Below, piece by piece: positions 1-4,190 of a stretch of DNA of 6,253 bases; position 1 is the stretch's first letter; every line of letters starts with the position of its first letter. Under the pieces are notes generated by a model that had not been told where the DNA came from, did no database searches, and saw nothing but the letters and a program-made list of their open reading frames with translations. This DNA is from a bacterium (GTDB lineage: Bacteria; JAJVIF01; JAGGVT01), in NCBI GenBank assembly GCA_021157815.1, contig JAGGVT010000132.1, positions 1 to 6,253 of the forward strand, read 5' to 3'. A program made the position numbers and the translations under genes.

Positions 1-135
1 AAGATTATCTTCCCCAATCAATATGCATTCAAAAAGTGGAGGGGTTGGACTCCACATAATTCCCGGACCTGATTTATGTCCGCAGGCGATAACATCATAC
101 AGTGAATAGAAACCGAAACCATGACCTTATTCATG
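1..135 (-). pseudogene. Remnant of a second zinc-protease-like C-terminus, stop codon inside HExxH
   Basis: Reading the minus strand from 135 to 1 gives 45 codons that open HE-stop-GHGFGFYS and continue with IACGHKSGPGIMWS, leaving the window still open. This closely matches the C-terminus of the large protein encoded at 824-4110 (HELSHGFGLYYS, IACGHKSGPGILWS), with one residue fewer between the two blocks. The third codon is TAA (127-129) where the intact copy has TTA (Leu), so a single T to A change would explain the stop. Many differences between the copies are synonymous (GGA/GGT, TTT/TTC, TGT/TGC, AAG/AAA, CCT/CCG), so this DNA evolved as coding sequence for most of its divergence. Similarity extends weakly upstream to about position 150, overlapping the 3' end of the 219-residue gene in another frame. 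I see nothing resembling the rest of the protease upstream. It is probably a truncated, inactivated paralogue; a base-calling error at the stop cannot be excluded. Confidence 0.72.
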
Positions 136-136
136 G

Positions 137-796
137 CTACGGATACGGATGCTGTCGCATCTCCGGCAGAATGACATCCTCAAGATAATCAATCAACGGC
201 ATGAGCTCTTCCGGCGGGTCATCGCCAATATTCCAGTCTTTAATAAACGTTCGTTTTGTGGGTAATTCCGGTTGTTCTTGATTTGGCAGATATATCTGCA
301 TAACGATACGATTTTGCAGCCCTAATTCTGTGATGCTGCCATACTCTAAAGTTTCCTCGCCATTGAATTCCTCAGCATTAAAGAAGTAATTCCCATTATC
401 CAGAATTACTTGAAACATGGGAATAACTAGGTTTGATGGGATTTTATGTTCATATGATTGATTTATATCTATATCTATATAATAAGAGTAGAATTCATCA
501 ATTTCCGAAAGCGGAAAATTTAACAATGTACCACCATTATAACGATATCTCGCTTCTACATCAAGTCGCTGCCACCTTGCATCAGGATGAGAGCTGTTAC
601 TCCGCATGAAATAATTAAAATATATCATTGTGAATTCCTCTTCAGAATCCATGAACCCTTCGAAATATTCCTGTGTGAACGGGTAATGTGTAATAACAGG
701 ATTCTTCATAGGCGGAATATCAGTTTGTGCAGGTGATGTAAAACCAAATAATAATAGCATAAGTAGAAGTGATATTTTATAATATTTTTTTACCAT
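137..796 (-). CDS. Secreted protein of unknown function, 219 aa
   Basis: I do not recognise this protein. It begins with a clear Sec signal peptide: basic residues KK at 3-4, a hydrophobic core at about 8-20 (ISLLLMLLLFGF) and a likely signal peptidase I site after SPA (residue 23). The mature part is acidic and rich in aromatic residues. Alternating hydrophobic stretches such as 120-133 and 161-170 suggest a beta-rich extracytoplasmic domain. There is no lipobox, no cysteine and no recognisable catalytic motif. The ATG at 796 is supported by AAGGAG seven bases upstream. The gene starts 27 bases after the stop of the large protease-like gene on the same strand, so the two are probably cotranscribed. 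Its last codons (HPYP, then TAG) overlap the region where similarity to the broken protease remnant begins, in a different frame. The native C-terminus may therefore have been replaced or truncated by a deletion joining the two. Confidence 0.8.
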   Translation of the reverse strand: MVKKYYKISLLLMLLLFGFTSPAQTDIPPMKNPVITHYPFTQEYFEGFMDSEEEFTMIYFNYFMRSNSSHPDARWQRLDVEARYRYNGGTLLNFPLSEIDEFYSYYIDIDINQSYEHKIPSNLVIPMFQVILDNGNYFFNAEEFNGEETLEYGSITELGLQNRIVMQIYLPNQEQPELPTKRTFIKDWNIGDDPPEELMPLIDYLEDVILPEMRQHPYP

Positions 797-823: not shown

Positions 824-3800
824 CTATGGGATTCTTGGATTAAATCTCATTAAGAATACATGGTCACCCCATAAATGACTTTTCCTAAAAGTAAGTGCAT
901 CATACATACTGCAGTCCCAATTATCTTCACTCCAAAGTATACCAGGACCTGACTTATGACCACAGGCAATGGGATCAATCGCGCTATAATATAAACCAAA
1001 TCCATGACTTAACTCATGCAAGGCGATTGCGATTTTTATATATTCAATATTACGAAGTACATGTCCATCAATCGCAAAGGCATTATGTTTCCCCAAACCC
1101 TTAATGAGATCGGTAGTCGAACCAACTAAGATAGCTGAAATCGGGAGACCACTTGGGTAAGTGTGTGTAGCAAAACCAAGTTTTTCAATGCTTTCAGGAT
1201 CGAAACATGGACAATAACTTCCTTCATAACCATCAATACTTAGAACCTGCGCAACATGAGGTGTTGTTGACGGTGGTGGCAAACGATCTTCAAGATGTGT
1301 CCAATCATCTGAATATGATGGAAGCCCACCATCGCTCACCATATCTTCATGTAATGTTCCAGGCGCTGACTTGTCTATCTCTTCAGGAGGTTCATCTGCA
1401 TCACCAAGGTCACGCCGATCAACACGCCCTTCTTGAAGATCAATGAAACAATCATCAAACATTTTGTGAGCGAAATCAACGATCTTCGCACGATCAGCAT
1501 TATAAGGACCTTCGAAGTGTGGATATTCATAATCTTCATTCTCGCAGCAGACATTAGGATCATCGTCATGCCTCATTTCCGAGAATTCAACATACGCTTT
1601 TCTCCAAACATGTATAATAGGTGATTCCGCCACTTCACAGGTTACTTCCACAGGATCATTATCAGGATCAACAATTGAAGCAAAAAATTTGTAATTGTCG
1701 CCTGCAAAATTTGACGTATAAAACTTAAATGGAAATGTTTGTGGATTGTCACATGTGTTATTAAAATAGTAAGCCAGATCTATTTCCTGCGTGCGATAAT
1801 AATGGCCTTGAATGAATCCTCCCCTTTGATAGGGAAGAATACGATGATAAACATTATTACTACAATTGGAGAATTGAGATACACTGTATTCTGAGGAATC
1901 AGAATTGTCCGGAGTTTGACCGGGATCAACAGGATCAATTTGCCAGGCCCCCTGATGCACCCGTGGATCAGGAAACAGGCGACTCGGTGAGCCAAATGGC
2001 CAAACCTCATCACCTAAACAAGCGTCTCTTGAATCAGTAAGCCAGGGGAATTTAGGGCGTTCAGTCGGCGCTTTGGGACCAAATGGCGTCATGGTTTTCA
2101 TTGGTTCAGTATCGATTTCAGGATCTTTCCAGAAAACTCTTAGTTTTGTACCTGGAGCGATCCAATAAGGTTCGAGTAATTCGACTTCGACTATTACATC
2201 AATCTTATTCTCGCGTTGAATATCGGGAACATCTTCTGGTAGTTTCTCACCAACTTCAAGATTGATAAACTGCTTACGTTCTTCAGCAGGTTCAATGAAG
2301 TGGACGACCAAGCCTTCAACATTTTCCCCATCACATCCAATGCTTAAATCTTGATAAATGTTTGGATATCTAACCCAATTACTTTCACCAGTTCCAGGAG
2401 TGTCCTTTAGAACTGGTCGCATGGTGAATGTATCCTCATGACCCCGGATTTGCGATTCCAAACCACCAATCCACGCCCAATAATCTAATACCCAGAGTTT
2501 AAATTCACCATCCAAATGTTTATCCATTGGCAAAGGATTATGGTCAGGATCACTCCATTCTATATGTTCCAGATAAGACTCAGGGTGGAGATCTACAGAA
2601 AATGCGTCCAGTGGCCATGCAAGATCAACATTAAAACAAATTGGAGAATCAGCATCAGGAGTAAACCCATAATTGATAGAGATATATTCATCCAAACATC
2701 CGAGGTGTGTTTTGTCATTACCACTCTCATCTTTTCCAAACATGTCTATTCCCGCCCAAAGGAAAAACTGCCTGCATTTATTAAAATCGTTTTTTAGGAA
2801 TAAAATCATATTTACGATACCCAAGGGCACTGGAGCACCTTGCCCAAACAACTCATAGTATTTATCTAAAACAAAATCTCCGGCATCATCTCCGTTCATT
2901 AAAATCGGTTCAACAACGAATTGCGGTGGTTCAGCATCCAGTGGAAAATCCCATGATGGTGATTCCCAAACCAGATTTGGCGGATCCTCTGAATCCCAAA
3001 CTTTAACTTTCATCTGGATACGATAACACCAGGGGAAATATAATGTATAATGTCCTGCAGCAACGGGAAAACTATTCGCACCATAACAAAAATCCATATG
3101 CTGTATATGGCTTTTGTCAATATTTAATGCTGTCTGACATTCATTGGTAACATCCGGTACTTCTGTAACATCTAGAATCCATTCTACTTCGAGGTTGCAA
3201 TCGGGTTCTTTTATTACCTTGTAGGTAATCGCATGAAATTCAGATTCGACTGAAAGGTGCTTATCTGTTTCGTCATTATAAACAATCTCACCACAACCTC
3301 CATCTCTACCTCCACCGCCATCACGCGGTTGCCTTTCTTCAGGGATTAAAAGAAATTCTGTTGACCCTCTTCCAGCATCGTATGACAGGTGGTAATCCTG
3401 GTCGCGGAAATTCTCATGCTTGCTTTCATCAACCAGATAAACAACCGCCCAATCTCCGAAATCCATATAATTAACTTTCTCGATTAAATCGGAACTGCCA
3501 TTCAATTTCCAGTTTGATTTATCCTCAATCTTTTTACTGTCTATTTCACCATCAAAGCAGATAAAGTAGCGTCTTCCTTTCGCATCACCGAGAAATCCGC
3601 TGATTTGCGGTGGATTCTTTTTCACCTCAAAATTCCAGTACGCACATGCGATATGTCCATTTTCAAAAGCAACACTTACATAAACACGGTTGAAACCATA
3701 ATCCAGGTCATAATCAGGAGTGAATATTATTTCATTTCCATTGACAATAATATTTGGTGAGTATTTATCGTTTATGGTTGCAGCTGTTTTAGTAATGGGA

Positions 3801-4110
3801 ACTTCTTCACCTACATGCAGTATTCCAGTGAAAGTTGGTTGCCTGTTCAGTATCCAGGGGAGTTTGAGGTTGGTATTAAGCAATTCATCGGGACCTGTTC
3901 GCTCGATATAATAATATTGAATACTGCCGTATGCCTGTCTTTCATAAGTTTGGGGCAGGATGTCAGATTCCGGGAACGTATTAATTAAATTCTCCCCTCC
4001 CCCCCCGAAGATGGCAGTACAATTGGATTGGAGCTTTTAGAGCATCCAATGGTTACAGAAAACAGAAATAGAAACGCTATACCACGCAACAGTGTTTTGG
4101 ATGAGAACAT
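824..4110 (-). CDS. Large lipoprotein with C-terminal HExxH zinc-protease signature, interrupted by a frameshift at a G8 tract
   Basis: The uninterrupted body runs from 3883 (first possible start, a TTG with no Shine-Dalgarno) to the TAG at 824, 1019 codons. Its frame is open further up to a stop at 4037-4039. From 4110 an ATG with AGGAGG eight bases upstream encodes a lipoprotein signal peptide, but in the other frame; adding one G to the G8 run at 3999-4006 joins them as SSGGGGENL into about 1095 residues. Numbering the 1019-residue body: about 1-90 and 91-180 look like Ig-like beta-sandwich segments; 186-199 is a Gly/Asp linker; DPD loops occur at 445-447 and 739-741; HELSHGFG lies at 956-963, followed by IACGHKSGPGILWS (972-985). 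There are 22 cysteines, which fits an exported disulfide-bonded protein. HExxH is the classic zinc-protease motif with Glu957 as catalytic base. The metzincin third ligand position (966) is Tyr, so Asp970 or His976 may serve instead. The substrate is unknown, and protease activity is inferred from the motif only. Confidence 0.78.
3985..4110 (-). other. Lipoprotein signal peptide and leader frame, 41 codons as read
   Basis: From the ATG at 4110 the minus strand reads MFSSKTLLRGIAFLFLFSV then TIGCSKSSNPIVLPSSGG, and stops at TAA (3985-3987) just after the G-rich tract. Lys5 and Arg9, a hydrophobic core at about 10-19 and a lipobox TIGC with Cys23 are typical of a signal peptidase II substrate. 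The short Ser/Asn/Pro-rich segment after the cysteine is a normal lipoprotein tether. Nothing else in this leader suggests a self-contained protein. It is most simply the missing 5' end of the large gene downstream, separated from it by a change in G-run length. Confidence 0.8.
3994..4006 (-). repeat. G8-A-G4 homopolymer tract at the frameshift point
   Basis: On the minus strand this is eight G, one A, four G. It lies about 35 codons into the leader and encodes the glycine linker after the lipobox. With eight G the leader ends at TAA six codons later. With nine or six G the leader continues into the 1019-codon body. With seven G it also ends quickly. Homopolymers of this length near the 5' end of surface-protein genes are known phase-variation switches, and they are also common sites of sequencing error. 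Confidence 0.75.
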
Positions 4111-4118
4111 TCTACAGA

Positions 4119-4124
4119 CCTCCT
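4119..4124 (-). promoter_or_regulatory. Shine-Dalgarno AGGAGG of the lipoprotein gene
   Basis: AGGAGG on the minus strand, eight bases before the ATG at 4110. It decides the start: the downstream TTG at 3883 has no such site, whereas this one is a full match to the anti-Shine-Dalgarno core and precedes a signal peptide. Confidence 0.85.
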
Positions 4125-4127
4125 GCA

Positions 4128-4177
4128 TTTAATGCTCATTAAAGCAACGCTCATTAAATTAATTCTACTATCATTAA
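4128..4177 (-). repeat. Three TTAATGA repeats plus inverted repeat in the lipoprotein promoter region
   Basis: On the minus strand TTAATGA occurs at 4177-4171, 4157-4151 and 4142-4136. The last two belong to a longer shared unit, TTTAATGAGC, at 4158-4149 and 4143-4134, 15 bases apart. The copy nearest the gene also forms a 7-bp inverted repeat with a two-base centre (TTTAATG CT CATTAAA on the + strand, 4128-4143). One copy sits in the -35/-10 spacer, one near the expected transcription start and one in the leader, as expected for operator sites of a repressor. No regulator gene is visible in the window, and AT-rich spacers can produce such repeats by chance. Confidence 0.45.
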
Positions 4178-4190
4178 GCACACTCGTCAA
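4162..4190 (-). promoter_or_regulatory. Sigma70-like promoter of the lipoprotein unit
   Basis: On the minus strand, TTGACG (4190-4185), a 17-base spacer, then TAGAAT (4167-4162). Five of six -35 bases and five of six -10 bases match the consensus at optimal spacing. Transcription would start near 4155, giving a leader of about 45 bases before the ATG at 4110. It would drive the large protease-like gene and probably the 219-residue gene after it. Confidence 0.65.

Follow-up and report, generated by a model that had tools for sequence, protein, structure and literature searches.

A G8 tract between a lipoprotein leader and a large modular body: a probable slippage switch in an effector-like protein family of an uncultured bacterium

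Results

Leader and body of the window gene

The 6,253-nucleotide window analysed here (JAGGVT010000132.1, the entire contig C109 from a draft genome of 3.2 Mb, 221 contigs and 90.9% completeness) carries on its minus strand a gene for a large modular lipoprotein whose leader and body, as assembled, lie in different frames. A preliminary description of this DNA had placed the start of the leader at an ATG at 4110, and direct reading found each of the signals named there, namely a promoter-like site 5' of the leader (TTGACG-N17-TAGAAT, 4162..4190), a Shine-Dalgarno sequence (AGGAGG, 4119..4124) and a TIGC lipobox (4042-4053). Translated, the ATG frame codes for MFSSKTLLRGIAFLFLFSVTIGC^SKSSNPIVLPSSGGEGRI and ends at a stop at 3985 (3985..4110), which is the 41-residue peptide expected from eight G. 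Inspection of MFSSKTLLRGIAFLFLFSVTIGC by eye shows a basic n-region, a hydrophobic h-region and a lipobox Cys, as in a lipoprotein signal peptide; the weak point of the lipobox is its T at -3, a tolerated residue where L/V/I would be typical. From the ATG, the signal peptide and a short linker run into the G8 tract, located exactly at 3999..4006 and followed by an A and by GGGG at 3994-3997.

The body frame is one base off the leader frame, as had been described, and stays open from the G8 tract to a stop at 824 (824..3997). Its 1,057 codons, a stop-free stretch with a chance probability of ~1e-22, bear out the large frame reported earlier, while the length of 1019 codons given then had been counted from the first TTG and not from 3997. 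The frames on either side of the tract are both otherwise sound, so that encoding of the full protein depends on the length of the tract; recalculation for the restored frame gave the same 1095 or 1094 residues as before. A G/C homopolymer of seven or more bases in a 5' coding region, of the kind that marks contingency genes, the G8 tract is a putative switch.

Leader tracts in the paralogue family

The N-terminal part of the body is homologous to paralogues on contigs C23, C194 and C208, and relatives of this region occur in the same genome on contigs C37, C89, C13 and C174 as well (at least seven paralogues). Five of them (on contigs C23, C194, C13, C174 and C37) share one leader type, MRFKxSKxxL-PPP-xILVIPLLFSMLFVQC, which differs from the window leader and has a run of eight C (seven on contig C37) between the basic n-region and the hydrophobic part of the signal peptide. 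All five are one base off, and past the tract they remain open for 1,057-1,200 codons where the contig allows; on contig C13, the n-region has a 9-base insertion that keeps the frame upstream of the tract. The paralogue on contig C89 has a different leader, with nine C immediately after the start and a frame offset in the opposite direction, and the window gene differs again in both base and place, its tract being of G and downstream of the lipobox. The paralogue on contig C208 is without a tract and has its leader in frame. Thus every family member with a tract, the window gene among them, is one base off frame (7/7), and the differences in base, place and leader indicate at least three separate origins of such tracts within the family.

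Comparison with homologues, which the preliminary description had suggested, was informative within the genome, where one leader is in frame and the other paralogues have tracts of seven to nine C, and drew a blank outside it. The search set has four genomes from the host phylum, and no family relatives were found in the remaining three; the leader-domain pattern has no relatives in contigs from 84,980 species or in viral contigs. Between the bodies on contigs C23 and C194, differences by codon position number 64/49/137; these are mainly at third positions, suggesting that the bodies are under purifying selection.

Contig ends cut family or partner genes on contigs C13, C174, C89, C106, C48, C142, C130 and C23, a pattern that population heterogeneity at these places, or assembly breaks at repeats, would produce. 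In-frame stops are also seen in two otherwise open paralogues, a TAG on contig C208 (L097 minus strand, 192 codons in) and a TAA on contig C89 (L181:6761-6763), which may reflect either decay or a polymorphism within the population that was assembled.

Homopolymers elsewhere in the genome

Tracts of seven bases were surveyed in 1.63 Mb (about half of the genome, enriched for contigs with G8 runs) and tracts of eight or more (G8+) in the whole genome. In the 1.63-Mb sample, ten G/C runs of 7+ are associated with signal-peptide genes, and eight of them lie at a frame junction (a hand tally, in which contigs C174 and C75 were added by eye), the in-frame cases being those on contigs C14 and C75. 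Inside open reading frames of 200+ codons, by contrast, 18 such runs are in frame, G9 tracts on contigs C41 and C104 among them, and none marks a mid-gene junction. Among signal-peptide genes, nine A/T runs of 8+ keep the frame and none breaks it, excluding hits that clearly start further downstream or lack a signal peptide of their own. The contrast between G/C and A/T runs in signal-peptide genes gives a Fisher value of 0.0007, which rises to 0.011 if the shared leader is entered only a single time. Three mid-gene junction candidates were found at A/T runs. In codon use, CCC makes up 18% of Pro and GGG 12% of Gly codons.

With a dispersed hairpin repeat removed, a G/C run of 7+ falls in the first 45 codons of ~0.5% of genes, and at that rate such runs in three of four independent family leader types have a chance probability of ~5e-7. 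The sample is enriched for G8 contigs, so the background rate is overestimated if anything and the chance estimate is generous.

Unrelated exported-protein genes carry similar tracts: 11 C in the n-region on contig C70, out of frame; nine C in the n-region on contig C14, in frame; and G8 directly after the lipobox on contig C75, also in frame. On contig C216 (L111:6461-6500, plus strand), a G10 run lies inside the TTGACA-N18-TATAAT promoter of an exported-protein gene, making this spacer a candidate for a classical promoter-type phase switch. Besides the window gene, exported-protein genes thus have seven out-of-frame tracts, two in frame and one in a promoter. When the shared leader is counted once, independent loci (across unrelated loci) stand at two ON and four OFF, which is close to the 1/3 ON expected under random phase.

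Many G8 runs were discarded as switch sites, as they belong to a hairpin repeat that ends in GATTAAGGGGGG and is scattered over intergenic regions. This repetitive extragenic palindrome (REP)-like hairpin, CCCCCCGCTCGCGGGGGGATTAAGGGGGG, is found on many contigs (e.g., L066:7099 and L113:3452, both plus strand); in the first ~1 Mb, 18 of its copies contain a G run of 6+, and its copies account for a large share of the G runs of the genome. The sister genome G002 has 197 overlapping G8 matches in 3.3 Mb, against 53 in the source genome; it could be another contingency-rich genome, or the excess could come from the hairpin repeat.

C-terminal modules and partner genes

Family members have a common N-terminal region and C-termini that have diverged or are unrelated. 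The variable C-terminal module of the window protein (827..1306, minus strand) is related to the end of a 673-codon frame on contig C142 and to displaced cassettes on contigs C142 (two) and C7, and weakly also to the C-terminus of the contig C37 paralogue; no relatives of it were found in ~380 further genomes. Within the module lies a putative zinc-binding motif, HELSH (HExxH; 1004..1018, minus strand), and HE[LI]xH recurs in all six full modules (window, three on contig C142, contigs C7 and C37). The C-terminus on contig C194 gives instead a weak, below-threshold match to Amidase_6.

The term 'protease-like' used in the preliminary description accordingly finds a basis in the HExxH motif of six modules but not in any family or structure match, as searches of family libraries (Pfam, NCBIfam) and of the PDB returned nothing significant, and an AlphaFold model with a predicted local distance difference test (pLDDT) score of 30 was unusable. 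The motif points to a putative HExxH metalloprotease-like module.

Downstream, the window encodes an exported small protein of 219 amino acids (137..796, minus strand), the putative cognate partner (an immunity protein or inhibitor), without relatives in viral contigs, and downstream of the partner gene lies what is left of another C-terminal module, containing a TAA (43..153, minus strand). Contig C142 (L099:1-5168, plus strand) resembles a cassette store, being an array of three C-terminal modules with HExxH in which a small exported lipoprotein is encoded behind every module. Displaced, N-terminally truncated cassettes occur in the window as well as on contigs C142, C7 and C106. A gene for a small exported protein comes after each module, and similarities among modules correlate with those among partners (Mantel r 0.87, p 0.003, six pairs). 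A module, a co-varying partner and displaced cassettes together match the anatomy of polymorphic toxin/immunity loci. The proteins resemble polymorphic effectors, possibly toxin-like ones; at the same time, a protease with an exported inhibitor would have identical anatomy. What had been taken for a lone surface protease gene is better described as a member of a polymorphic, probably effector/immunity-like family.

Discussion

We consider phase variation by slipped-strand mispairing at the G8 tract to be probable, and it is the best explanation for the arrangement in the window, as the preliminary description had proposed. The G8 tract would be a simple-sequence contingency site whose length we infer to change in cells by slippage, and only certain G-run lengths would bring the lipoprotein signal peptide into frame with the 1,057-codon body. 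The OFF state would then be the one captured in the assembled consensus, with the 41-residue peptide as sole product, and most members of this genome's large modular lipoprotein family appear to carry a comparable leader site. In the ON state, cells would make a lipid-anchored, presumably exported protein that combines the N-terminus common to the family with a variable C-terminal module, in this gene a metalloprotease-like one (HExxH) with presumed protease activity, while the small exported partner encoded downstream may protect the producer, as in a toxin/immunity pair, or keep the module inactive. The proposal is strengthened because tracts in other exported-protein genes of the same genome are mostly one base off, whereas other homopolymers are not.

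Several observations weigh against such a switch. No tract-length variation was observed, and a second strain or outside homologue was sought and none found. No tract-bearing family member has been seen in the ON state. The anchor-to-anchor length is identical in all five C-tract leaders, even on contig C37, where seven C are joined by an extra T, and this counts against switching because random switching does not predict it. The additional stops on contigs C208 and C89 point to some decay. Tracts of 7-9 bases are short for a fast switch, and the mismatch-repair genes mutS and mutL are both present in the genome, suggesting that switching, if real, operates despite mismatch repair or slowly.

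One alternative is recoding. Here the length of the tract would not change, and -1 slippage on the homopolymer, either ribosomal or transcriptional, would give access to the body; in the group of five shared leaders, the same could come from reinitiation at a GTG overlapping the stop of the leader peptide (GTGA). The five leaders do agree in offset and anchor-to-anchor length, with ATTCTCGTGATTCC fully conserved, and the window gene and contig C70 need a shift in the same direction. However, the offset on contig C89 is the opposite one, contigs C14 and C75 are plainly in frame with similar tracts, and the paralogue on contig C208 has a plain in-frame leader; as to reinitiation, the window gene has no start just past its tract, and a signal peptide begun at the GTG would be short and lack a basic n-region. 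Taken together, we regard recoding in either form as unlikely. The uniform OFF state of the tract-bearing members, the additional stops and the truncated cassettes displaced on contigs C142, C7 and C106 and in the window could also mean that slippage mutations have silenced the family for good, leaving pseudogenes or a silent archive for recombination. We think this quite unlikely, given that four bodies of 1,056-1,199 codons are still open, that differences between contigs C23 and C194 are mostly at third positions, and that the start region is kept in each gene, together with a conserved upstream region in the five-leader group.

Error in assembly or base-calling at long G/C homopolymers would produce the same offsets, and it is true that polishing is not checkable for a draft in 221 contigs and that several family genes are at contig ends. 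Nonetheless, random error is unlikely because in-gene G/C runs elsewhere are never at a frame junction (18 in frame outside leaders); A/T runs in signal-peptide genes are normal, and errors would need to pick the leaders of one protein family, so that we hold this explanation to be very improbable. Slippage at the tracts therefore remains our preferred reading. Beyond it, we suggest only tentatively that the uncultured phylum may possess an arsenal of lipoprotein polymorphic effectors with their own partners, displayed at random per cell through slippage switches in the signal-peptide region, perhaps as a bet-hedging of antagonism or self-recognition.

If such switches are real, contingency loci would be joined with polymorphic toxin/immunity repertoires, two themes usually studied apart, and the mechanism would extend to a deep uncultured lineage, with switches in or next to the signal peptides of an effector-like family. 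We found no literature that connects homopolymer switching with a polymorphic family of lipoproteins (open-access sources only). Automatic gene calls on drafts can miss protein starts of this kind, since they list the leader as a short open reading frame of its own.

Homopolymer phase variation has been described mostly in host-adapted pathogens and commensals. The loci described here resemble the phasomes of Campylobacter, Helicobacter and Neisseria in having G/C runs of 7+ at the 5' ends of surface genes, an apparent mixture of ON and OFF states across unrelated loci and a promoter-spacer example. In Campylobacter, tracts of eight or more G have been shown to switch, and the cut-off used there is 7+ (PMC6321876). 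Those poly-G/C loci come mainly from host-associated organisms, whereas here the lineage is a deep uncultured one, mutS and mutL are present and the tract is mostly inside the n-region of the signal peptide.

The anatomy of the family resembles that of two other systems in outline. SitA of myxobacteria (sitBAI) likewise has, in the excerpted text of its descriptions, a lipoprotein signal, a shared N-terminus, unrelated C-terminal modules and a downstream cognate gene, and a phase switch is not mentioned in those excerpts (PMC5562445, PMC8546572). The likeness shown is one of anatomy, with no sequence relation established and no search aimed at SitA made; SitA C-termini are mostly nucleases, and the partners here carry export signals. 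Neisseria TpsA/tpsC-IORF and MafB loci share downstream N-terminally truncated cassettes, alternative 3' ends and intervening small open reading frames (PMC3848433), but they use two-partner secretion or a MafB scaffold and not a lipoprotein, and are varied by cassette recombination, slipped-strand switching of mafB being unreported in the excerpted text.

Homopolymer switching of surface proteases is already known from NalP and AusI (Neisseria meningitidis), which are among the closest parallels to the putative phase-variable protease described here. NalP is also a lipoprotein. It is, however, a subtilisin-like autotransporter, with no sequence relation to the window gene found, and where NalP and AusI are phase-variable surface proteases, the window gene belongs to a family of many paralogues with variable C-termini and downstream partners.
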